Shown in pieces: positions 2,448 to 21,269 of a stretch of DNA of 64,000 bases. Origin of the DNA: Hahella sp. KA22 (lineage in GTDB: Bacteria > Pseudomonadota > Gammaproteobacteria > Pseudomonadales > Oleiphilaceae); the NCBI RefSeq assembly GCF_004135205.1, contig NZ_CP035490.1:248001-312000 (forward strand), in the 5' to 3' direction. The translations under genes were made by a program, and so were the position numbers. The notes under the pieces are model-generated. The model ran no database searches, was not told where the DNA came from, and saw nothing but the letters and a program-made list of their open reading frames with translations. Each line of letters starts with the position of its first letter. Position 1 is the first letter of the stretch.

Positions 2448-4391
2448 TCAGGCAGGGGTCAGTCTGACTTTGACTTTCAGCTCCTGACGTTCGCGGGGCA
2501 GCGTCACCGTCAGGTTCTCCGGATCGAAGTCCTGATAAAGCTCGCCATTCACCCATACTTTGTCGATCTTCACACTGCCTTTGGGCAGAATGTCCGGCTC
2601 CACTCGCAACAAGTTACCGGAAAAACCGTTCGCCTGCGGCTTGAAGTAAAGATCCATGGGTTGCTTTAGGATCAGCAGCTTGTTGTAAACCGCCGACAGA
2701 TAGGCCAATTCAAAGGCGTGATATCCCGCCATGGAGTGGCTGCCTTTGCTGCGCTCCATGCCTTCCACATAGGGCTGGCCGCCAGCCAGCACGTTGAAGT
2801 AAACCCCGCCGTCCGCGCGATCCAGAAACCAGGCGTTGTAGAAAGCGGAGGATTCCCGCGCCAGTTGCAGATAGTCAGGATTGCCGGTCACGCCCGCCAG
2901 AATCTGATAGGCCAGGATGCCCTGTTCCTGCTGCCACCACGCCTTGCGATCATGGAAAGCGAAGCGGTGCTGACTCTGACCATCGCTGAGCTTGCGCTCC
3001 ACCACGTCGTACCAGCCTCCGCGCTGTAAATCCGCGCCGTATTTCGGCATGGCGTCGCCCAGAGTTTGCGCCAGCTCGGAATAGGCCACCTTCGGACGCA
3101 GATTGTTCATGCGCATCAGGTTCCAGGCGATTTTCAGGTCATGCCCAATAACCGCCCGGTCCTGCTGCCATTTGTAACCGGCGTCCACGGACCAGTCCGC
3201 GAAGAATCGCTCGTTGACGAAGGGACTCTCTGTATCGCTGGGGAACCGAGCAGCGATAGTGTCGAAGGTATCTTCCAGAAAGTCCGCATATTCCGTCTTA
3301 CCCGTGGCCAGCCACAGATTAATCAGATAGGCCGGCGCGTGGTCGCCCACAGAGTTCCAATTCTTCTTACTGCGGTTATCGCCCAATGACTCCGCATTAG
3401 GACTCAAAGTAGAGGCGTCGATGTGGGAGAAATACCCGCCTTGGGCGCTCTGGTCGCGATAGCGGTTTTCAAATAACGCCAGGGTTTTCTCTACATCCTG
3501 CAGAATGGCGCTGTCGCCAGTAATACGATAGGTCTGCACCAGTCCGGCCAGATCATAGATCTGCTCGTAACAGGGAATGGCGTTGTAATCGTCGGAAAAA
3601 CGCGAGCCCGCAAAGGTTTCAACGCCGCTTTTGCCATTAACGTCCAACGCATGCAGCCAATAGAACTGCTCGCCCTTGTTCACCTGAAAGTTGGCGCGCA
3701 GGTACGCTGTTCCCTTCTGCGCCGCCTCCCAGTAGCGGTCCTCCCCCGTCATCATGTACGCGGTGGCGAAACCGTATATCAGGCGCGATAAGGTAGCGGC
3801 TTCCTGAATGCCGTCACCCAGTTTATCCCCTTCAAGAGACAGGTTGGTGCGATAGCGTGTGTAATCGATCGGACCGTCGCCGAACTCCGCCTGCAGGTAG
3901 AAGTCCGCCAACTCACTGATTTGACGGCTCCACCAGTCGCTTTGTTCAAAGACGTACTGGTTATCCTGAGTTGTGGGGAAAACCAGATGGATCGTCTCCA
4001 GGCCGTATTGGCCGTCCTGAGGGTAGAACACGCCATAAGCGTACACATAGCGCCCCTGGGTCAGCATGACGTCCAGCTTATCCGTGGCGTTCCTGAATTC
4101 TTCGCCCAGATTATGCACAAACTCCGCATAAGCGTTATCGCCGATTTTCACAGACAGCTCATGACCATTGCGGGTTTTTAGAGTGAAGGTCCTGTGAGCG
4201 CGGTCATATCCGGTCACATAACCGGCGACCAGATCGGAAAAGGTGAATCCAGTACGTTCCGCCATAGACGCCGTCGGGGCTGCTGCGTTTGCAGCCTGCG
4301 GCTCATTCGCCGCCGCGACGGAACCGGAGATGGAGACTAATGTAGAGAGTGAAGCAGTAACAACGCAGGCCAGTATCTTCTTCTTAAACAT
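2448..4391 (-). CDS. exported N-acylglucosamine 2-epimerase (AGE)-fold protein
   Basis: A 647-residue protein with a signal peptide (KKKILACVVTASLSTLVSISGSVAAA). Residues about 50-135 form a small beta domain. From about 150 on it shows the repeated helical hairpins of an (alpha/alpha)6 barrel of the AGE/cellobiose-epimerase superfamily, with the typical W, Y and H-rich spacing (WLHALD, NSVGDHAPAYLINLWLATGKTEY, KIAWNLMR, WWQQEQGILAYQILAGVTG, KGSHSMAGYHAFELAYLSAVYNKL). It ends in a beta domain of about 60 residues. It probably acts on a sugar or oligosaccharide in the periplasm or outside the cell. Whether it epimerises or hydrolyses cannot be read from sequence. Confidence 0.68.
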   Translation of the reverse strand: MFKKKILACVVTASLSTLVSISGSVAAANEPQAANAAAPTASMAERTGFTFSDLVAGYVTGYDRAHRTFTLKTRNGHELSVKIGDNAYAEFVHNLGEEFRNATDKLDVMLTQGRYVYAYGVFYPQDGQYGLETIHLVFPTTQDNQYVFEQSDWWSRQISELADFYLQAEFGDGPIDYTRYRTNLSLEGDKLGDGIQEAATLSRLIYGFATAYMMTGEDRYWEAAQKGTAYLRANFQVNKGEQFYWLHALDVNGKSGVETFAGSRFSDDYNAIPCYEQIYDLAGLVQTYRITGDSAILQDVEKTLALFENRYRDQSAQGGYFSHIDASTLSPNAESLGDNRSKKNWNSVGDHAPAYLINLWLATGKTEYADFLEDTFDTIAARFPSDTESPFVNERFFADWSVDAGYKWQQDRAVIGHDLKIAWNLMRMNNLRPKVAYSELAQTLGDAMPKYGADLQRGGWYDVVERKLSDGQSQHRFAFHDRKAWWQQEQGILAYQILAGVTGNPDYLQLARESSAFYNAWFLDRADGGVYFNVLAGGQPYVEGMERSKGSHSMAGYHAFELAYLSAVYNKLLILKQPMDLYFKPQANGFSGNLLRVEPDILPKGSVKIDKVWVNGELYQDFDPENLTVTLPRERQELKVKVRLTPA

Positions 4392-11440: not shown

Positions 11441-11806
11441 ATGACCCAACCTAAATTGACGGTTTACTACGACGGAGCCTGCCCCCGCTGCGTTCGCGAC
11501 CGTCGCAATTACGAGAAGCTGGCGGGAGGTCGCGCCGCCGAGGTGTGCTGGCTCGATATCACCGGCCGCGATGACGATCTGCGCCAGGAAGGCATCGACC
11601 CTCACGCCGCCCTGACGGAACTACACGTGCGTGATGAGAACGGTGACGTGCATCGGGAATTGGACGCCTATATCCTGCTCATGCGCCGCACCCTGCTGCT
11701 GCGCCCTCTGGCCTGGCTGTTGAGCCTGCCCGGCTTGAAAGGCTGGCTGTCCCGCTGGTATCGCCGCAGCGTTATGCAACGCCTGCAGAAAAGCGGACGT
11801 GCTTAA
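11441..11806 (+). CDS. DCC-family (DUF393) thiol-disulphide oxidoreductase-like protein
   Basis: A 121-residue protein with the family hallmark close to the N-terminus, YYDGACPRCVRDRRNY, in which the CPRC pair sits where thioredoxin-fold proteins carry their CxxC. The mid-region (VCWLDITGRDD, LTELHVRDENGDVHRELDAYILLMRRT) follows the DUF393 pattern, and the C-terminus is hydrophobic then basic. The reaction is unproven in the family. It is second in a two-gene unit after the TerB-like gene and convergent with the retron reverse transcriptase. Confidence 0.8.
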   Translation: MTQPKLTVYYDGACPRCVRDRRNYEKLAGGRAAEVCWLDITGRDDDLRQEGIDPHAALTELHVRDENGDVHRELDAYILLMRRTLLLRPLAWLLSLPGLKGWLSRWYRRSVMQRLQKSGRA

Positions 11807-11828: not shown

Positions 11829-13163
11829 TCAGACGGATTCCTGCGGCCAGACAATACGTTGATACAGCGCCAGCAACTTACGCCCTTTTTCTGGATTGAT
11901 CCCTGCCATATAGGCGATTTTCCCTCTCAGATGCGCCGCCCAATCCCCATGTCCCTGGCGGTTTTGCCCGTCGGGGCCGAAGCGCAGGCAATTGTGCAGC
12001 ACCGCTTTCAGCTCATCGTAGTCCTTGCGCGGGATATTGGCCTTGGCGTTCACCACCAAGCCTCCTACCTGCTGACGCGCACCCTGCCCGATCACCGCGC
12101 TTTTGCGCGTGTTCAAAACGAAGCCTTCTTCCAATGCGATAGCGCCGACCAAGGCTTGTAAGCGCGCTATCGCGCCGGGACTCATCCTCGGTCCCGATAA
12201 AACGACATCATCGGCGTATCGACTGTAACGCCGCCCCATACTGTCAGCCAGCGCACTCAGGCGCCGATCCAGGTGAGCGGCGGCGAGGTTGGCCAACGCT
12301 GGTGACGTAGGCGCGCCCTGAGGCAAATGGGCGCGACGGAATAACTCATTGCCGCGCTCCAGATAGCCGGCCAAGGGCTGCCGCAATATCTCATCAGGCG
12401 TGACATGTGAGCACAGCTTACTGAGCAGACGCGCAACCTGATGACCGTATCCCAGCCGCCGGAACGCGCGATAAATCTGCGCATAACTCACCGACGGAAA
12501 GAAGTCCTTGAGATCAAACTTGAGCAACAATGTCTGACCGATATGGATGCGAGCGTGAGTCAGGCTGGAGCGTTGCGCGCGAAAGCCGTGAACGGCCTCG
12601 TGCAGGGGTAACGGAGCGAGAATCTCCTGATGAATACGACGCTGTATGGTCTTCAACCAAGGCTTGGGCGCTTCCAGCAATCTGGCTCCGCCACGGGGTT
12701 TATCCAGCCAGCGATAGATGTAATGCCCTAACGCGGAAGACGCCCCGCTTGGAGCGCCGCGAGCTTGCGTCAGCCAGTCCAGATCCTCTGGAGTCAGCCG
12801 CAGCCAGTGCATGAGGTCGCCAGCGCAACGCAGCGCTGGTAAACGATATCGCGCCGCCAGACTGTCCGGCGCAAGCTCCTGAGGCGGAGGCAAAAATATG
12901 CGTCGCACTTGAATCGGGCGGGAAGACAATGCAAGGCCTCGTTGAAAGCCCCGGTCAGCCAGAATAGCTTCAGTCAGAGTATGGGCGGAGGTAGTTTCCC
13001 AGACTTGCTGAAATCGCCTCCACATACGACGCGTCAACGGCGCCAACCAGGCCGGCTGCTCTCCCAGCGCCATAGCAGCGCGCTGTTGCATCTCCCGCGC
13101 TATCGGCGCGCCGGATTGGTAGGCGTCGGCGAGACGGGCGGCCAGCCAGCGGTCATATCTCAT
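11829..13163 (-). CDS. retron-type reverse transcriptase
   Basis: A 444-residue RNA-directed DNA polymerase. ATG 13163 is preceded by AGGGA; a TTG two codons upstream is the alternative. About 105 residues of unassigned helical N-terminal extension precede the RT core: GGARLLEAPKPWLKTIQRRI (152-177), VHGFRAQRS (191-199), the retron region X equivalent THARIHIG (202-209; NAxxH in most retrons), FDLKDFFP (216-223), LPQGAPTSP (280-288), and the catalytic YADD (316-319). Region Y reads VGGLVVN from 366, where retrons usually have VTG. It lies 45 bases downstream of an msr-msd RNA and should prime on it to make msDNA. No effector gene is adjacent. An N-terminal extension also occurs in myxobacterial retron RTs (family recollection). 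Confidence 0.92.
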   Translation of the reverse strand: MRYDRWLAARLADAYQSGAPIAREMQQRAAMALGEQPAWLAPLTRRMWRRFQQVWETTSAHTLTEAILADRGFQRGLALSSRPIQVRRIFLPPPQELAPDSLAARYRLPALRCAGDLMHWLRLTPEDLDWLTQARGAPSGASSALGHYIYRWLDKPRGGARLLEAPKPWLKTIQRRIHQEILAPLPLHEAVHGFRAQRSSLTHARIHIGQTLLLKFDLKDFFPSVSYAQIYRAFRRLGYGHQVARLLSKLCSHVTPDEILRQPLAGYLERGNELFRRAHLPQGAPTSPALANLAAAHLDRRLSALADSMGRRYSRYADDVVLSGPRMSPGAIARLQALVGAIALEEGFVLNTRKSAVIGQGARQQVGGLVVNAKANIPRKDYDELKAVLHNCLRFGPDGQNRQGHGDWAAHLRGKIAYMAGINPEKGRKLLALYQRIVWPQESV

Positions 13164-13208
13164 CGCCAATATCCCTGGAGAATGTCAGAGGCAGAAAAAT
13201 AGAAAGGG

Positions 13209-13374
13209 GACGACGCTCCAACCCTCCTCCCGTGGTCGATACCGTTCTACGCCTTGGCGTAGGGCGGTATGGACGGCGATATGCGTAGTCAACATGTAAC
13301 CCCGGGGTAGCCCCGGAGCAACGGATCAGGCCCGGTCGCGCCGGTTCCGGATCACGCTCGCTTGAAGCGTCGTC
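13209..13374 (-). ncRNA. retron msr-msd RNA
   Basis: About 166 nt, transcribed leftward. The a1 repeat (GACGACGCTTCA, 13374-13363) pairs over 12 bases with a2 (TGGAGCGTCGTC, 13220-13209), with one G-U pair. Directly after a1 comes AGCGAG, the same context as the branching guanosine of retron Ec86 (TTAGCGAG), so G13361 is the candidate priming base. Two msr stem-loops follow (13353-13324 and 13316-13302, the latter CCGGGG-CTA-CCCCGG). A long msd hairpin comes next (13274-13235), with two uninterrupted stems of six bases each around a CAAG loop. The order a1-msr-msd-a2-RT is canonical. The predicted msDNA is about 65-80 nt. Confidence 0.88.
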
Positions 13375-13381
13375 GCAGTGC

Positions 13382-13411
13382 AAGGTAGAGGACAACAAAC
13401 GCCCTTGTCAA
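13382..13411 (-). promoter_or_regulatory. putative retron promoter
   Basis: A perfect TTGACA -35 (13411-13406) lies 18 bases before a weak TACCTT -10 (13387-13382). Transcription would begin near 13375, which is exactly the first base of the a1 repeat. The -10 matches the consensus at only three positions. Confidence 0.5.
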
Positions 13412-13434
13412 CGCCGGAAGCGCGAGGCCAGGAG

Positions 13435-14310
13435 TCAGCGCACCCGTGGCGAGTCCTCGTAGCCCTGATACCAGAGTCCTTCGCGATGCAGAGGGGTTCG
13501 TTCAGGCAGAATAGGGTTGGTCAGCATATATACTTGGCGGTGCGCCAGCTTGGCTTTGTTAAGCAGCTCGCCGTGATAGTAGAAAAACATATCATCGAAG
13601 GAGCCGTCCGCCAGGGCGCGCAACAGACCTTCTTCGATCAGCGCCTCCAGTTCTTTGTTATCCGGGGCGACAAAGTAGTAAAAGGCGGTGGGATAGCGCA
13701 GTAACTTGGTTTGCTCGATGGCGAGCCCTATATCCCGATGATTCTCCAGTTCCGCCCAGATTTCCACGATGGAGCGGGGAAACAGGTCCACACGGCGGCG
13801 CGCCAGCATATCGAAGATGGTTTCGTAGTTGGGTGTGCCCAGCACTTTGTAGCCGTTCATCTGCAGGATTTTCGCATCCGGCCAGTCGTGGCCCTGCACC
13901 ATCAGAAACTGTTTCATATCCTGGGCCGTCATAGGACGGCTGAGGCGCTCCACGTCGCTTTCGTTGATCAGAAAGATACGCCAGCCGATCAGGCCTTTGT
14001 AGATAGGAATGCGCACTGGCAGCAATTCCTTCTCGCGTTCCTCCGAAGTCATACTCCAGACCACGTCCAGGTTGGAGCCGGAGCGCAGCAATTGCAGAGC
14101 GCGCCCCTGATTCATCAACTGATCGGTGGGAACCAGGCTGTAGTCGACTTTCATTTTCTGAAACGCGAGCTCAAGCAGCTTCAGCGGATACTCAGTCCGC
14201 TTATCCACATCCGCCTCTGGCCGCGGATATCGCACCACTAAGGTCTCCGCCGCCGCCGCGAGCGTCATCAACAGTAACGCGGACGCCACCGCCCAACGTA
14301 ATGTACGCAC
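13435..14310 (-). CDS. periplasmic solute-binding-like protein
   Basis: A 291-residue protein with a signal peptide (ASALLLMTLAAAAET). The mature chain follows a type II periplasmic binding fold of the SBP_bac_3 kind: LVVRYPRPEADVDKRTEYPLKLLELAF at the start, DVVWSMTSEEREKELLPVRIPIYKGLIGWRIFLI in the middle, and LLRALADGSFDDMFFYYHGELL near the end. No permease or ATPase gene is adjacent, so it may be a sensor-like or orphan binding protein. It ends 24 bases before the retron -35 on the same strand, without an obvious terminator between them. Confidence 0.65.
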   Translation of the reverse strand: MRTLRWAVASALLLMTLAAAAETLVVRYPRPEADVDKRTEYPLKLLELAFQKMKVDYSLVPTDQLMNQGRALQLLRSGSNLDVVWSMTSEEREKELLPVRIPIYKGLIGWRIFLINESDVERLSRPMTAQDMKQFLMVQGHDWPDAKILQMNGYKVLGTPNYETIFDMLARRRVDLFPRSIVEIWAELENHRDIGLAIEQTKLLRYPTAFYYFVAPDNKELEALIEEGLLRALADGSFDDMFFYYHGELLNKAKLAHRQVYMLTNPILPERTPLHREGLWYQGYEDSPRVR

Positions 14311-16669: not shown

Positions 16670-17437
16670 TTACTCTTTATGTAGCTCCACCATGGACATG
16701 ATTTGCTTAGCGTCTTCGAGCATTCGCTGATATCTCTGTTCATTGCGGCCCAACTCAGTCGTCGTCCGAAAGCTAAATGTAAGGTAATAGCCATCGGTCA
16801 ATGGATAGGCCCAGTAATATGTAATGCTGGCGCCAGCAATACCCTCTCCATCAATGCAGTAGTGTAACCACTCAATACCATTGATCCGTTCCTTAACGTA
16901 GATTTCTGGTAAAAGGACTAACACCAATCTCCTGACAGGGATGTAACCCTTAGCTCTTACCTCGTCAGGGTTATCGAAATCATATCGCTTCTGCCAGTTG
17001 CTTCCTGGTACTCCATCGATATTTTTTTCTGCTTCATAGTAATCCCAATAGTCCTCTCTCAGATAAGTCTCCAGACTTTCGAGATCACTTCCACGAAGTG
17101 GTGAATGATGATTTATTCGGTTAACGTCGACATGCAAGCTCATCTTGCTTAGCAGCCCAGAATCTCCCTGGAAAAATAGCCCTCTGTAAGCCCACCACTC
17201 GAACTCCATTTGAACGAAAGTACGGTTATATAGCTTCTTGGGGTCATACGAATCAAATAGATCTGCGTTTAAATTAACCCTAGATGGAACTGGAGCGTCA
17301 GGCATACCAATATCAATAGTATTCCCCGGCAGCTTATACCGTAATTGGTAGTCACCAACTCCGCACTCCTTTGCGCTCAGCTCTGAAAAGTTCGGCCCTT
17401 TACCAGTAAAAAGCGGCCTCGCCATTTGTTTAATCAT
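16670..17437 (-). CDS. putative immunity protein, subtype A (A1)
   Basis: A 255-residue soluble protein without signal peptide or membrane helix. It shares a family pattern with three neighbours: GKGPNFSELSAKECGVGDY then YKLPGN at the start, WWAYRGLFFQGDSGLLSKMSL mid-chain, YYWAYPLTDGYYLT late, and EDAKQIMSMVELHK at the end. I do not recognise the family. Tandem paralogues downstream of a lipase-like gene on an AT-rich island fit immunity proteins, but this is inference from context. It is closest to A2 and is the last gene of the leftward run. Confidence 0.6.
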   Translation of the reverse strand: MIKQMARPLFTGKGPNFSELSAKECGVGDYQLRYKLPGNTIDIGMPDAPVPSRVNLNADLFDSYDPKKLYNRTFVQMEFEWWAYRGLFFQGDSGLLSKMSLHVDVNRINHHSPLRGSDLESLETYLREDYWDYYEAEKNIDGVPGSNWQKRYDFDNPDEVRAKGYIPVRRLVLVLLPEIYVKERINGIEWLHYCIDGEGIAGASITYYWAYPLTDGYYLTFSFRTTTELGRNEQRYQRMLEDAKQIMSMVELHKE

Positions 17438-17563
17438 AATAAGGCGGGTTCATTTATCGGAAATACGTCTCTAAGTAGAGTGTAAACAGATAGGATCACC
17501 TGATAGCACAAGAGCAATCTCTCCAGCACCAATCAGGCATTTGCGACATATTCGGAGTGGGCA

Positions 17564-18310
17564 TCATCGCCCTTTACTCAGCTCCACCATGGACATGATG
17601 CGGCAGGCGTCTTCAGCCATACGCTCCCGCCTTAGTTCTTTCGGATCTCCAACTTCAAAGCTCATTTTAAAGCCAATGGTTAAGTAATATGAGTCATTTA
17701 AAGGATATGCCCAATAATAACTGTAGCGATGGCCTGCACGACCTTCAGGACCGAGATGGTATGCTAGCCAATCAACGCCATTAATAGTTTCCCTGTCATA
17801 CTTCTCTGGTAGATGAACAAGGTATTGGGGCGGAACTTCACCCTTTGTAAACGCGTCCCCCTTAAACCTCTGTCGCGCTTTCCAATTAATCCCCGCCCGT
17901 TCCTCTGACTCGTAGAAATCCCAGAAGTCTTTTATTAGATAGGATTCCAAGCTATCAAGATCGCTGGCCCTAATTACAGTATGATTTTCAGCCTTATTGA
18001 CTTCCACACGCATGCTTAATTGGCAAAGCTTTCCAAAAGCCCCCTGTAAAATAAAGCCTTTATAGCACCACCATCCAAACCCTACAGTAACATACGTTCT
18101 GTTAAACGTTTGCTTGCTGTGGGGATCAAACATATCCGCTCTTAAATTTAGTTGAGCCGGAAATGGGGAGTCTTGTTTTCCCGGCATATACATATTTCCA
18201 GGCAACTTGAAACTCAGCCAGTAGTTGCCTACGCCACACTCCTTTTTAGTCAAGCTTGCATAGTCTGGCCCCTTCCCTGTCAGTGCGGGGGCTAACAAAT
18301 TTTTTAGCAT
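17564..18310 (-). CDS. putative immunity protein, subtype B (B1)
   Basis: A 248-residue soluble protein of the same unknown family: GKGPDYASLTKKECGVGNY near the start, YKGFILQGAFGKLCQLSMRVEVNKAENHT mid-chain, YYWAYPLNDSYYLT late, and EDACRIMSMVELSK at the end. It is clearly closer to B2 than to A1 or A2. Its ATG overlaps the stop of a 24-codon copy of the toxin's tail, exactly as the ATG of B2 overlaps the stop of the intact toxin gene. No exported signal is visible, so any immunity function would act in the cytoplasm. Confidence 0.6.
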   Translation of the reverse strand: MLKNLLAPALTGKGPDYASLTKKECGVGNYWLSFKLPGNMYMPGKQDSPFPAQLNLRADMFDPHSKQTFNRTYVTVGFGWWCYKGFILQGAFGKLCQLSMRVEVNKAENHTVIRASDLDSLESYLIKDFWDFYESEERAGINWKARQRFKGDAFTKGEVPPQYLVHLPEKYDRETINGVDWLAYHLGPEGRAGHRYSYYWAYPLNDSYYLTIGFKMSFEVGDPKELRRERMAEDACRIMSMVELSKGR

Positions 18311-18375
18311 CCACTTAACCTGCTCTGTTCTTTAATAACTCGAGCCGCCGCTCTATCGCGACCGCACAACTGTAA
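18304..18375 (-). pseudogene. orphan copy of the toxin gene's 3' end
   Basis: Twenty-three codons and a stop that encode exactly the same C-terminal residues as the intact lipase-like gene (from LQLCGR to RLSGC). There is a single synonymous base difference (GGT for GGC). No start codon or further toxin sequence precedes it. It marks the breakpoint of the tandem duplication and keeps the stop-start overlap with gene B1. Confidence 0.85.
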
Positions 18376-18435
18376 TTATGGCGATCGCCTATGCAGTCAT
18401 TAACTTTCCAGAAGAAGAGCAAATCAATAATAAAG

Positions 18436-18464
18436 CCCCGCACACCTTCTGATTGGGTGTGGGG
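18436..18464 (-). terminator. terminator after gene A2
   Basis: Read leftward: CCCC-ACACC, a loop, then GGTGTG-C-GGGG, followed by CTTTATTATT. It would end transcription before the second B-A pair, unless read-through or an internal promoter serves the latter. Confidence 0.7.
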
Positions 18465-18476
18465 TCGGTACTGTTG

Positions 18477-19244
18477 TTACTCTTTATGTAGCTCAACCAT
18501 TGACATAATACGTTTAGCATCTTCGTACATACGCTGATATCTCAGTTCTTTGTTGCCAATCTCTGAAGAAACCCGAAAGTTGAGTGTTAAGTAATAGTTA
18601 TCGCTCAGTGGATAAGCCCAATAATAACTTTGTCCCCGCCCGACGCCTTCACCTCTAATGCAATAGTGAAGCCATTCAAGTCCATTAATAGCCTCTCTGT
18701 GGTATATTTCTGGCAAGTGCGTCACTAACTCTAACCTCCCAAGGGGTATATATCCCTTAGCTCTAACTTCGTCAGGATTTTCAAAATTATAACGCTGCTG
18801 CCAATTAGCCCCAGGCTCTCCATCCTTATTTTCTTCTGTTTCGTAATATTCCCAGTAGTCCTTTTTAAGATACGACTCCAAACTATCAAGTTTCTCTTTA
18901 AAAAGTGGCGTGTGAGATTCTGCTTGATTGACGTCAAGATGCAAACTCATCTTACTAATCAGCCCTGAATCGCCCTGCAAGAAAATTCCTCTATAAGCCC
19001 ACCACTCGAAATCCATTCGCACAAAGGTACGGTTAAAAAGCTTCTTTGGGCTATATGACTCAAATAGATCAGCTTGCAAGTTAACTCTTGATGGAGTCTG
19101 AGTATCGGCAGTTCCAATTTTTATGATGTTGCCGGGAAGCTTATATCGCAATCTGTAGTCACCAATGCCACACTCCTTAGTAGTTAGCTTTGAAAAGTTC
19201 GGCCCTTTTCCTGTTAATAGGGGCCTCACCAATTGCCTGATCAT
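18477..19244 (-). CDS. putative immunity protein, subtype A (A2)
   Basis: A 255-residue protein, the same length as A1 and closely related to it. The start at 19244 is set by alignment with A1 (MIRQLVRPLLTGKGPNF against MIKQMARPLFTGKGPNF); the frame stays open 27 codons further upstream but without similarity. Family motifs include TKECGIGDYRLRYKLPGN, WWAYRGIFLQGDSGLISKMSL and EDAKRIMSMVELHK. It has no signal peptide. Function is unknown and inferred as immunity from position behind the lipase-like toxin. Confidence 0.6.
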   Translation of the reverse strand: MIRQLVRPLLTGKGPNFSKLTTKECGIGDYRLRYKLPGNIIKIGTADTQTPSRVNLQADLFESYSPKKLFNRTFVRMDFEWWAYRGIFLQGDSGLISKMSLHLDVNQAESHTPLFKEKLDSLESYLKKDYWEYYETEENKDGEPGANWQQRYNFENPDEVRAKGYIPLGRLELVTHLPEIYHREAINGLEWLHYCIRGEGVGRGQSYYWAYPLSDNYYLTLNFRVSSEIGNKELRYQRMYEDAKRIMSMVELHKE

Positions 19245-19368
19245 AATATGGCGGGTTCCTGTATAGGAGATACGTACTTGAGTAGAGTGCAAACATTGAT
19301 TACAGATAGGATCACCTGACAGCACAAGAGCAATCTCTTCAGCGATAATCAGGCATTTGGAGTGGGCA

Positions 19369-20112
19369 TCATCGCCCTTTACTCAGCTTCACCATGGACA
19401 TGATACGGCCTGCATCTTCAACCATACGTTCTCGTCTTAATTCCTTGATATCACCATGTTCAAAGAGCATCCAGAAAGACACAGTAAGGTAAAAATTTTC
19501 ACTTACTGGATACGCCCAATAATATGTGTAACGGTATCCCGCACGACCTTCTGGACCTATCTGATAAGACAGCCATGAAGCGTCATTAATATTTTCGATA
19601 TCATAGCTTTCAGGCAGGGTTACTAGATAGTGATCCGGCACTTCCCCTTTCGTGAAGGCATCGTCTTTAAACTTTTGCCTAGCTTTCCAGTTTATTCCGC
19701 CCTCTGATTCATAGTAGCGAGAAAAGTCATTTTCTAAGTAGCTTTTCAGGCTTTCTAAATTTCCTGTCTTTATTGTCGTATGAGGTTCAGCACGATTAAC
19801 GTCTATGTTTAACGCCAAACTACATAAACGTCCAAAATTTCCTTGAAGAATAAACCCACGGTACTCCCATGACTCGCATTGAACCTGGATATATGATCTA
19901 TTGAATGTCTGTTTATATGACGATTGATCAAAAAGCTCTGGCTGAAGATTTACCATTAAAGGAAAATTTGGTCTTCTTACGCCTTTTAACCCAAGGTTTC
20001 CTGGCAACTTATAGCCTAATACATAGTCGCCTATTCGACACTCCTTTTCGGAGAGGCGAGAGTAATCAGGGCCCTTCCCTGTAAGCGCAGGGGCTAACAA
20101 ATTTTTTAGCAT
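19369..20112 (-). CDS. putative immunity protein, subtype B (B2)
   Basis: A 247-residue protein of the same family (GKGPDYSRLSEKECRIGDY, YRGFILQGNFGRLCSLALNIDVNRAEPHT, YYWAYPVSENFYLT, EDAGRIMSMVKLSK). Its ATG lies inside the last codons of the lipase-like gene (seven-base overlap), so the two are translationally coupled. That is what one expects for a toxin and its cognate immunity protein. It has diverged strongly from B1, which suggests recognition of different toxin variants. Confidence 0.65.
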   Translation of the reverse strand: MLKNLLAPALTGKGPDYSRLSEKECRIGDYVLGYKLPGNLGLKGVRRPNFPLMVNLQPELFDQSSYKQTFNRSYIQVQCESWEYRGFILQGNFGRLCSLALNIDVNRAEPHTTIKTGNLESLKSYLENDFSRYYESEGGINWKARQKFKDDAFTKGEVPDHYLVTLPESYDIENINDASWLSYQIGPEGRAGYRYTYYWAYPVSENFYLTVSFWMLFEHGDIKELRRERMVEDAGRIMSMVKLSKGR

Positions 20113-21269
20113 CCACTTAACCTGCTCTGTTCTTTAATAACTCGAGCCGCCGCTCTATCGCGGCCGCACAACTGTAAATGTCTAATACTGCATTCCTGAC
20201 TTAAATATGGCAACGTGTGGGGACTGGTCTGCATTGGCCGGTCGCCAATACCAAACACATATAAACTAAATCTCAAGCAGCGCTTAGTCGTAGACCATGA
20301 CCAATCATTATTTCCCGCCAGGTTTGGGACCAAGTCAAATGGGCTGTCTCGGTCCATATCAACAACGTTAATCCCAGCTTGTGCAAAAGCTTCTTTCGCC
20401 CGGTCCTTATTGTTTCCGCCAGAATGAACAGCTACTTGCTGTCCATCCAAGCGAATCCCCATGTTATTTATCTTTTCAACTGCACGAGTAAAAATTATTC
20501 CGCCTTGGCTATGGCAGACCCACTTGATTTTCCGGCCTTTTCTCTGACAGTCCAACAACACTGCCACCAATTGATCACAGACTTTAGATGAGCCTATTTT
20601 ATCTTTCATGCACTCAAACAAATCCAGAACCACTCCTTGCGATGGGTTATGGAATAGAGTGTAGTCTTGAAACTGGTCATCCCAGTATGCCGTATCAAGA
20701 TGCACCCCCATTAACCAAGTGGCCTTTTCCAAGTCATTAAGCATCCCGTTCACAGCAGCATGGTCAGTTTTGACCTCCACTACAGGAGTTGGACCTCCCC
20801 ACGACCTTGGTAATGCCAGTATATCGGCACTATCCGAATGTTCATGATATCGAGTATTAGATACCCTTGGAATTTCGTACAACCCAGGCTTTTCCTGCCA
20901 CCTAAAACGCCTGCTACCGACTACCTTTTCGTTGATCCCGATAGAGCTAATTATGATCTTGTCTGAGTTGACGCTGTAAACCAGATTAAGGTTGCCCGCC
21001 GCCGCAATGCCGTCGGTTTTTGAGCGCATGAACATTGGCTTTAACTTAAATCCACTGCTGGCCTGCCCATATCCACCGTCTGAAACAAGCTTTGATATGG
21101 CCCGGTAAACTTCCGTTTGTTGGTAGGTGTTAAGGTTTCTTAGAAAGATATTGGCCTCTTTAGTAATGAAGAGTCTTTTTCCCGTAGTATTTTGGCGGGG
21201 CCCCCAGCCATTGGTAGGGTTTTCCAATGGAATTAGCTGGTGGTGTTCGGGGATGTTGCTTTCTTGCAT
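20106..21269 (-). CDS. lipase-like alpha/beta-hydrolase, putative antibacterial effector
   Basis: A 387-residue protein whose ATG follows an AGGAA site. The N-terminal 130 residues are unassigned. The C-terminal half looks like an alpha/beta-hydrolase: the nucleophile elbow KWVCHSQGG has Ser254 in the pattern C-H-S-Q-G (Gly replaced by Cys at the first position). D312 in FDLVPNLAGN and H351 in SPHTLPY are placed like catalytic Asp and His of phospholipase effectors. There is no signal peptide or secretion marker domain (PAAR, VgrG, MIX, RHS). Coupling to gene B2 and the immunity array point to an interbacterial lipase toxin, possibly type VI-delivered; substrate and delivery are inference. 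Confidence 0.62.
   Translation of the reverse strand: MQESNIPEHHQLIPLENPTNGWGPRQNTTGKRLFITKEANIFLRNLNTYQQTEVYRAISKLVSDGGYGQASSGFKLKPMFMRSKTDGIAAAGNLNLVYSVNSDKIIISSIGINEKVVGSRRFRWQEKPGLYEIPRVSNTRYHEHSDSADILALPRSWGGPTPVVEVKTDHAAVNGMLNDLEKATWLMGVHLDTAYWDDQFQDYTLFHNPSQGVVLDLFECMKDKIGSSKVCDQLVAVLLDCQRKGRKIKWVCHSQGGIIFTRAVEKINNMGIRLDGQQVAVHSGGNNKDRAKEAFAQAGINVVDMDRDSPFDLVPNLAGNNDWSWSTTKRCLRFSLYVFGIGDRPMQTSPHTLPYLSQECSIRHLQLCGRDRAAARVIKEQSRLSGC

Follow-up and report, generated by a model that had tools for sequence, protein, structure and literature searches.

A probably active retron in Hahella sp. KA22 with no recognised effector gene beside it

Does the DNA upstream of a reverse transcriptase (RT) gene in Hahella sp. 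KA22 encode a complete retron RNA, and does a defence function follow from it? The window analysed here is a stretch of 64,000 nucleotides (contig NZ_CP035490.1, positions 248,001 to 312,000); coordinates are positions within it unless a locus is named. At a probability of about 0.9, the locus is a genuine and probably active retron: ncRNA and RT share a single transcript with a promoter of its own, and no further part is recognisably linked to them. Its RNA can be described base by base with the backing of covariation, and a covariance model finds members beyond its training set. The subfamily to which it belongs looks effector-less, and bears on the question of what retrons without a neighbouring toxin do. 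A literature search, whose scope did not extend to the Mestre 2020 classification, found no paper on this Hahella retron.

The retron msr-msd RNA occupies positions 13374–13209 of the minus strand, in the order a1, priming G, stem-loop 1, stem-loop 2, msd hairpin, a2. The arms a1 (13362–13374) and a2 (13221–13209) pair over 13 contiguous positions, one of them G-U; an earlier note on this DNA had seen the pairing correctly and had given its extent as 12 bases, nine of them clean. The same note placed an AGCGAG priming context immediately after a1. The motif is present, but its A is the last base of a1, and the remaining bases follow directly. The candidate priming (branch) guanosine, assigned from sequence, is 13361, within CAAGC. 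Ec86 (Retron-Eco1, type II-A) also has AGC after its a1. For myxobacterial retrons, PMC6868368 describes the priming G in CAGC (Mx162, Sa163) or GAGC (Mx65). Stem-loop 1 (13320–13358) is defined by the minimum-energy fold. Stem-loop 2 (13300–13318) has an 8-bp stem and a 3-nt loop, CUCCGGGG-CUA-CCCCGGGG, and is a signature of the subfamily, with a GGGG-NNA-CCCC core at 16/16 RNA-bearing loci. Because the C-terminal part of the Ec86 RT is described as binding an msr stem of eight pairs whose loop has three bases (PMC6868368), this hairpin is likely to be the RT handle. The msd hairpin (13235–13274) is the conserved part of the predicted reverse-transcribed region. The RT gene (11829–13163, minus strand, 444 aa, YADD catalytic core) begins with an ATG at 13163, 45 nt past a2 as previously stated; the ORF tool called an alternative TTG start 6 nt upstream of it.

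Folding supports this arrangement. The minimum-energy structure of 13380–13205 contains the a1/a2 pairing, the two msr stem-loops and the msd hairpin, just as the earlier note had ordered them (-82.3 kcal/mol, z = -3.37; 0/200 shuffles equally stable). When about 95 nt of upstream DNA are included (275-nt stretches), the a1/a2 pairing appears in the folds of L008, L010 and L011 but in none of the three other Hahella sequences, of which the window's own is one. In the whole window Rfam gave no match at the gathering score; a search of 13000–13600 at E up to 10 returned no retron family, only a chance plus-strand snoRNA match (8.7). The lack of a family above the gathering score and the loss of pairing in some longer folds would fit inverted repeats lying by chance upstream of an RT gene, or an RNA that is not a retron's, such as a cis-regulator or a DRT-type template. 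This is very improbable: it is contradicted by covariation over 32 pairs, by matches of the covariance model outside its training set and by the retron fold of the RT.

The promoter region bears on the longer folds. TTGAC lies 34–40 nt before the 13-nt a1 arm at all 16 loci carrying the RNA. In the window the putative -35 box of the ncRNA promoter, TTGACA, occupies 13406–13411 of the minus strand; it begins at 13411, the end coordinate of the earlier note's feature. A probable -10 box, TACCTT, assigned by position, follows at 13382–13387 on the same strand after an 18-nt spacer, and TACCTT or TACTTT stands at the matching position in 6/6 Hahella loci. A generic promoter scan made no call in the region of the TTGACA box, probably owing to a weak -10. 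The probable -10 position would put the start of the RNA at about a1. The box before a1 suggests that transcription does start there, in which case the upstream 95 nt or so would be absent from the transcript.

Covariation was assessed at two levels. A plain MAFFT alignment of six Hahella upstream regions, made without use of pairing, shows a1 and a2 changing together (GACGACGC...GCGTCGTC versus AACAACAC...GTGTTGTT). For eight further loci, arms were placed by complementarity or by register with the common hairpin. In a first search, arms were clear for the six Hahella loci, L042 and L049–L051 but not for L052, L053, L054, L041, L043 or L005; those recovered later came to light by way of the common hairpin or the covariance model. 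The arm used for L052 ranked fourth by score, and the register of L005 was set by the CAAG/TTG motif rather than by the best score. Across the 14 sequences, 21 of 32 pairs show compensatory changes on both sides, among them nine of 13 in a1/a2 (95.1% of cells paired), four of four basal pairs of stem-loop 1 (82.1%) and seven of seven counted pairs of the msd hairpin (86.7%). The covariation that the earlier note expected of a1/a2 and the msd stem in homologous loci is therefore present. Overall, 92.2% of 448 cells are paired against a shuffled mean of 72.8%, a figure biased upward because the arms of eight of the 14 sequences were found by complementarity. None of 500 shuffles attains any of five covariation measures, and slid controls pair at 37–47%. 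The comparison within Hahella and the model matches outside training are free of the complementarity bias.

A covariance model built from the 14 sequences matches the window at 13209–13374 on the minus strand with 141.8 bits, the score of a training sequence (L048). The covariance search that had been proposed thus draws a blank with Rfam and succeeds with a model from homologous loci. Outside training the model finds L043 (5.1e-17) and L041 (3.4e-14), both upstream of their RTs, and recovers arms there that the manual search had not ranked first. A doubtful match at L053 (E = 0.07) is at noise level, since reverse-strand matches at the RNA loci themselves reach 0.015–0.04. Weak opposite-strand matches in the window (0.017) and at L041 (0.2) are as expected of an inverted-repeat RNA. 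At E up to 1 the model has no match at L054, L006, L007, L003 or L016–L018, nor at the seven loci with long RTs resembling type XIII (L044–L047, L055–L057). In the Hahella genome itself (G000, 6.96 Mb, one contig) a search at E up to 10, in which 150 of the 1054 first-look candidates were scored, gave a single RNA match. PADLOC's own msr-msd models are mentioned in PMC9252829.

The RT belongs with those of retrons. Its best PADLOC profiles are RT_other (7.9e-128, 425.6 bits), which covers residues 4–444 of the 446-aa frame, and RT_outgroup (1.9e-121, 404.1 bits). These are profile names and not a described mechanism; the names suggest retron RTs that fall under none of the numbered types. The third profile is type XIII (1.1e-91, 306.3 bits), whose RTs differ in their N- and C-terminal parts. 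RVT_1 is the only Pfam domain. The closest solved sequence is Ec86 (4.1e-33), which also comes first in a fold search with the structure model (pLDDT 85.7, pTM 0.62) at 4.2e-21 and 27% identity; the best 18 of 50 rows are all retrons, so that the modelled fold is that of a retron RT. YADD (residues 316–319) is invariant in 15 alignment rows. Region X reads HARIH instead of NAXXH, with A and H kept and N replaced by H, and region Y reads VGG instead of VTG; L037, L053 and L054 have VTG. NAXXH and VTG are each substituted in two of 16 validated retrons described in PMC6868368, that is, rarely. By the sequence tests available the Hahella element is a retron, save for these two degenerate motif positions. 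Among four close Hahella species the ncRNA is identical at 159–163 of 166 positions, RT third positions differ by 23–34%, and dN/dS in the RT domain is 0.09–0.11 (4/6 pairs), which points clearly to purifying selection on the RT.

Unlike Ec86, the Hahella RT is extended at its N-terminus. In a 105-residue model with a mean pLDDT of 91, residues 1–80 fold into a compact domain of five helices, and an extension is found in 15/15 aligned RTs, three loci with interrupted frames being left out. The retron could conceivably be a complete anti-phage system with its effector built in, this domain being or recruiting a toxic activity upon phage damage to the msDNA. Such a reading, in keeping with the compact extension shared by the aligned RTs and with the single-gene retrons with fused effectors in the PADLOC library, is nevertheless doubtful. 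Invariant residues are few (M1, L11, A12 and L33 in 11 rows), no catalytic signature is recognised in the domain, and its fold search returned no meaningful PDB match (best E 5.2). Selection on the N-terminal part is weaker than on the RT domain (dN/dS 0.16–0.29 in 4/6 pairs of the four close species), and the domain may merely aid RNA binding.

From these parts a general mechanism can be proposed. (i) The RT would bind the msr through the CCGGGG-CUA-CCCCGG triloop hairpin. (ii) The a1/a2 duplex would offer the 2'-OH of G13361 as primer. (iii) The RT would start copying beside a2 (about 13222), traverse the msd hairpin and terminate before msr stem-loop 2, at about 13280–13295; these limits are set by analogy with Ec86. 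(iv) Host RNase H would trim the template, leaving a branched, RT-bound msDNA of about 55–75 nt. The 65–80 nt estimated earlier are also plausible. The msd of Mx162 differs in being described as 162 nt long (PMC6868368). The most likely role is that of a bipartite RT–msDNA complex whose partner is either the helical N-terminal domain of the RT itself or a protein from another locus.

RNA and RT subfamily occur together. The RNA is present at 16 of 18 loci examined that carry the N-extended RT, drawn from Hahella, other Pseudomonadota, three Burkholderia replicons and one planctomycete MAG. RT homologues are found in six of seven Hahella genomes, in three further genomes among 369 of the class and in 3/200 of the order of genome G527; others in the phylum came from a profile search. 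Three records of a plasmid collection have at least 80% RT coverage, all of them Burkholderia, and one homologue lies in a Gemmataceae MAG. No relative was confirmed among viral contigs, and none of the 17 phage records with matches covers 80% of the RT. Of the 369 class genomes the RNA model matches four, two of them training loci, and a search with the RT protein at 1e-70 picks out exactly these; among 398 phylum genomes it matches the Hahella genome itself and G527, both training loci. These large RNA searches used stricter filters, with which weak matches are lost. At 1e-80 the RT_other profile finds seven of the 398: two bear the RNA, two have a divergent RT of the L053/L054 type, and three have long RTs which by eye resemble the type XIII-like RT of Hahella. 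CAAG at the end of a1 and the primer is found in 14/16 RNAs and is invariant in the 14 aligned, with CGAG in L041 and L043; the base after CAAG is C in 12/14, A in L059 and U in L005. At L052/L058 (G527) the RT has an internal TGA right after YADDLVFS, next to an ncRNA scoring 128.1 bits as a training locus. Either this copy broke recently or the sequence contains an error; as the RT is interrupted by a stop, the system may be dispensable there.

The earlier note had reasoned that retrons are anti-phage systems and that the locus is hence a functional defence element. The surroundings give no such indication. Upstream lie an MFS transporter gene and a gene without a Pfam match whose product looks like an extracellular solute-binding protein; downstream and convergent are genes for a DCC1-like oxidoreductase and TerB. 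PADLOC found nothing in 14 of the 15 neighbouring proteins tested, and the fifteenth, with a mad1 match (2e-13) over 50 residues, looks like a MerR-type regulator. This short regulator-like match apart, none of the 15 could be recognised as the product of an effector or defence gene. A linked or fused effector was thus found neither among the neighbours, nor by Pfam beyond RVT_1, nor by the N-terminal fold search, in contrast to Ec86, which has a separate effector (PDB title 7v9x). An effector of an unfamiliar kind is possible. Defence by retrons is described as needing the RT, the RT-DNA and an accessory protein (PMC8989520), some retrons without a proximal effector are reported (PMC8867640), and lone retron RTs are met elsewhere (PMC12548924). 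A functional defence element therefore does not follow from the presence of the retron and stands as a hypothesis for Hahella, anti-phage action itself being possible.

Comparison of loci gives the same picture. In two divergent Hahella species the genes around the retron are quite unlike those of the window, and over about 8–10 kb the two Hahella sub-clades have no neighbour in common (13 window genes tested). No clean empty site could be defined from the flanking genes, whose positions in the other sub-clade are unrelated. At the one Burkholderia locus with annotation, the neighbours are SDR and carboxypeptidase genes. The remaining loci were surveyed by ORF listing alone, and two neighbours each of L042 and L053 were checked in part. 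In the four close Hahella species and at L053/L054, a gene for a DCC1-like thiol-disulfide oxidoreductase lies directly beside the RT. This gene was rejected as an effector: it is convergent in the window (11441–11806) and co-directional at L053 (10343–10762), the two are about 26% alike, and it was not found at the other loci compared. Since neighbours differ among the loci, the unit conserved across those compared consists of the ncRNA and the RT.

Two loci from genomes of different families stand beside candidate defence genes. At L041 the PADLOC candidate pair PDC-M05A/B (2609–3798) adjoins the RT. At L043 (6864–7845) the second gene of a pair is PDC-M05B by PADLOC and the first is related to that of L041 by BLAST only; PDC-M21B and a SoFic match lie nearby. 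Such pairs comprise a nucleotidyltransferase and a small protein, and their orientation to the RT is opposite at the two loci. The pair is possibly a recruited effector. Together with published effector exchange (PMC12548924), these neighbours lend something to the rather unlikely view that the effector is encoded at another site in the genome and works in trans, or that the retron borrows a different partner in each host. No partner is conserved, however, and the Hahella loci compared lack the PDC-M05 pair. Of the six species with the retron, four also have the second retron-type RT of Hahella, which is thus not an obligate partner.

A role outside defence may also be considered, if tentatively: a vertically kept msDNA with a cellular function, as may hold for myxobacterial retrons. 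Mx162, Mx65, Sa163 and Ne144, which share the extended RT N-terminus, are not known to have an effector. The myxobacterial retrons are described as N-extended and are thought to be vertically inherited (PMC6868368). In four Hahella species the retron occupies the same site with an RT identity of 82–90% and near-identical RNA, and no defence system is recognised around the window locus. Its distribution is nevertheless patchy: one of seven Hahella genomes lacks the RT and two have it at a different site, only four of 369 class genomes have the element, and L041 and L043 adjoin candidate defence genes.

More broadly, the loci may belong to a bipartite lineage in Pseudomonadota and at least one planctomycete MAG, a reading that is possible yet uncertain. 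Its traits would be TTGAC at -34 to -40, the CAAG primer, the GGGG-triloop-CCCC hairpin and a helical N-terminal RT domain of unrecognised fold. It would do without a separate effector, N-terminal domain and msDNA serving as sensor and response or in a non-defence role. With an almost invariant RNA in four close species and a unit of about 1.6 kb, the retron is testable, and it is a compact candidate producer of ssDNA.

Other observations concern the same genomes. On the minus strand of the window, at 16670–20112, four paralogues (247–282 aa) stand in a row next to a gene for a 387-aa protein with a hydrolase-like HSQGG motif (20106–21269). None of the five has a PADLOC match, and the three tested have no Pfam match. 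Their arrangement is one that an effector and duplicated immunity genes might have. Identical-score RT matches occur at several sites per genome in G001 (L018, L020, L023) and G006 (L019, L021, L024), and are probably group II introns. The second retron-type RT of the Hahella genome, of 587 aa, lies at L044 (10181–11941; G000:C1 about 3401180–3402940) and matches PADLOC type XIII with 650.6 bits. It has what looks like a C-terminal membrane helix, and close relatives in three other of the seven Hahella genomes.
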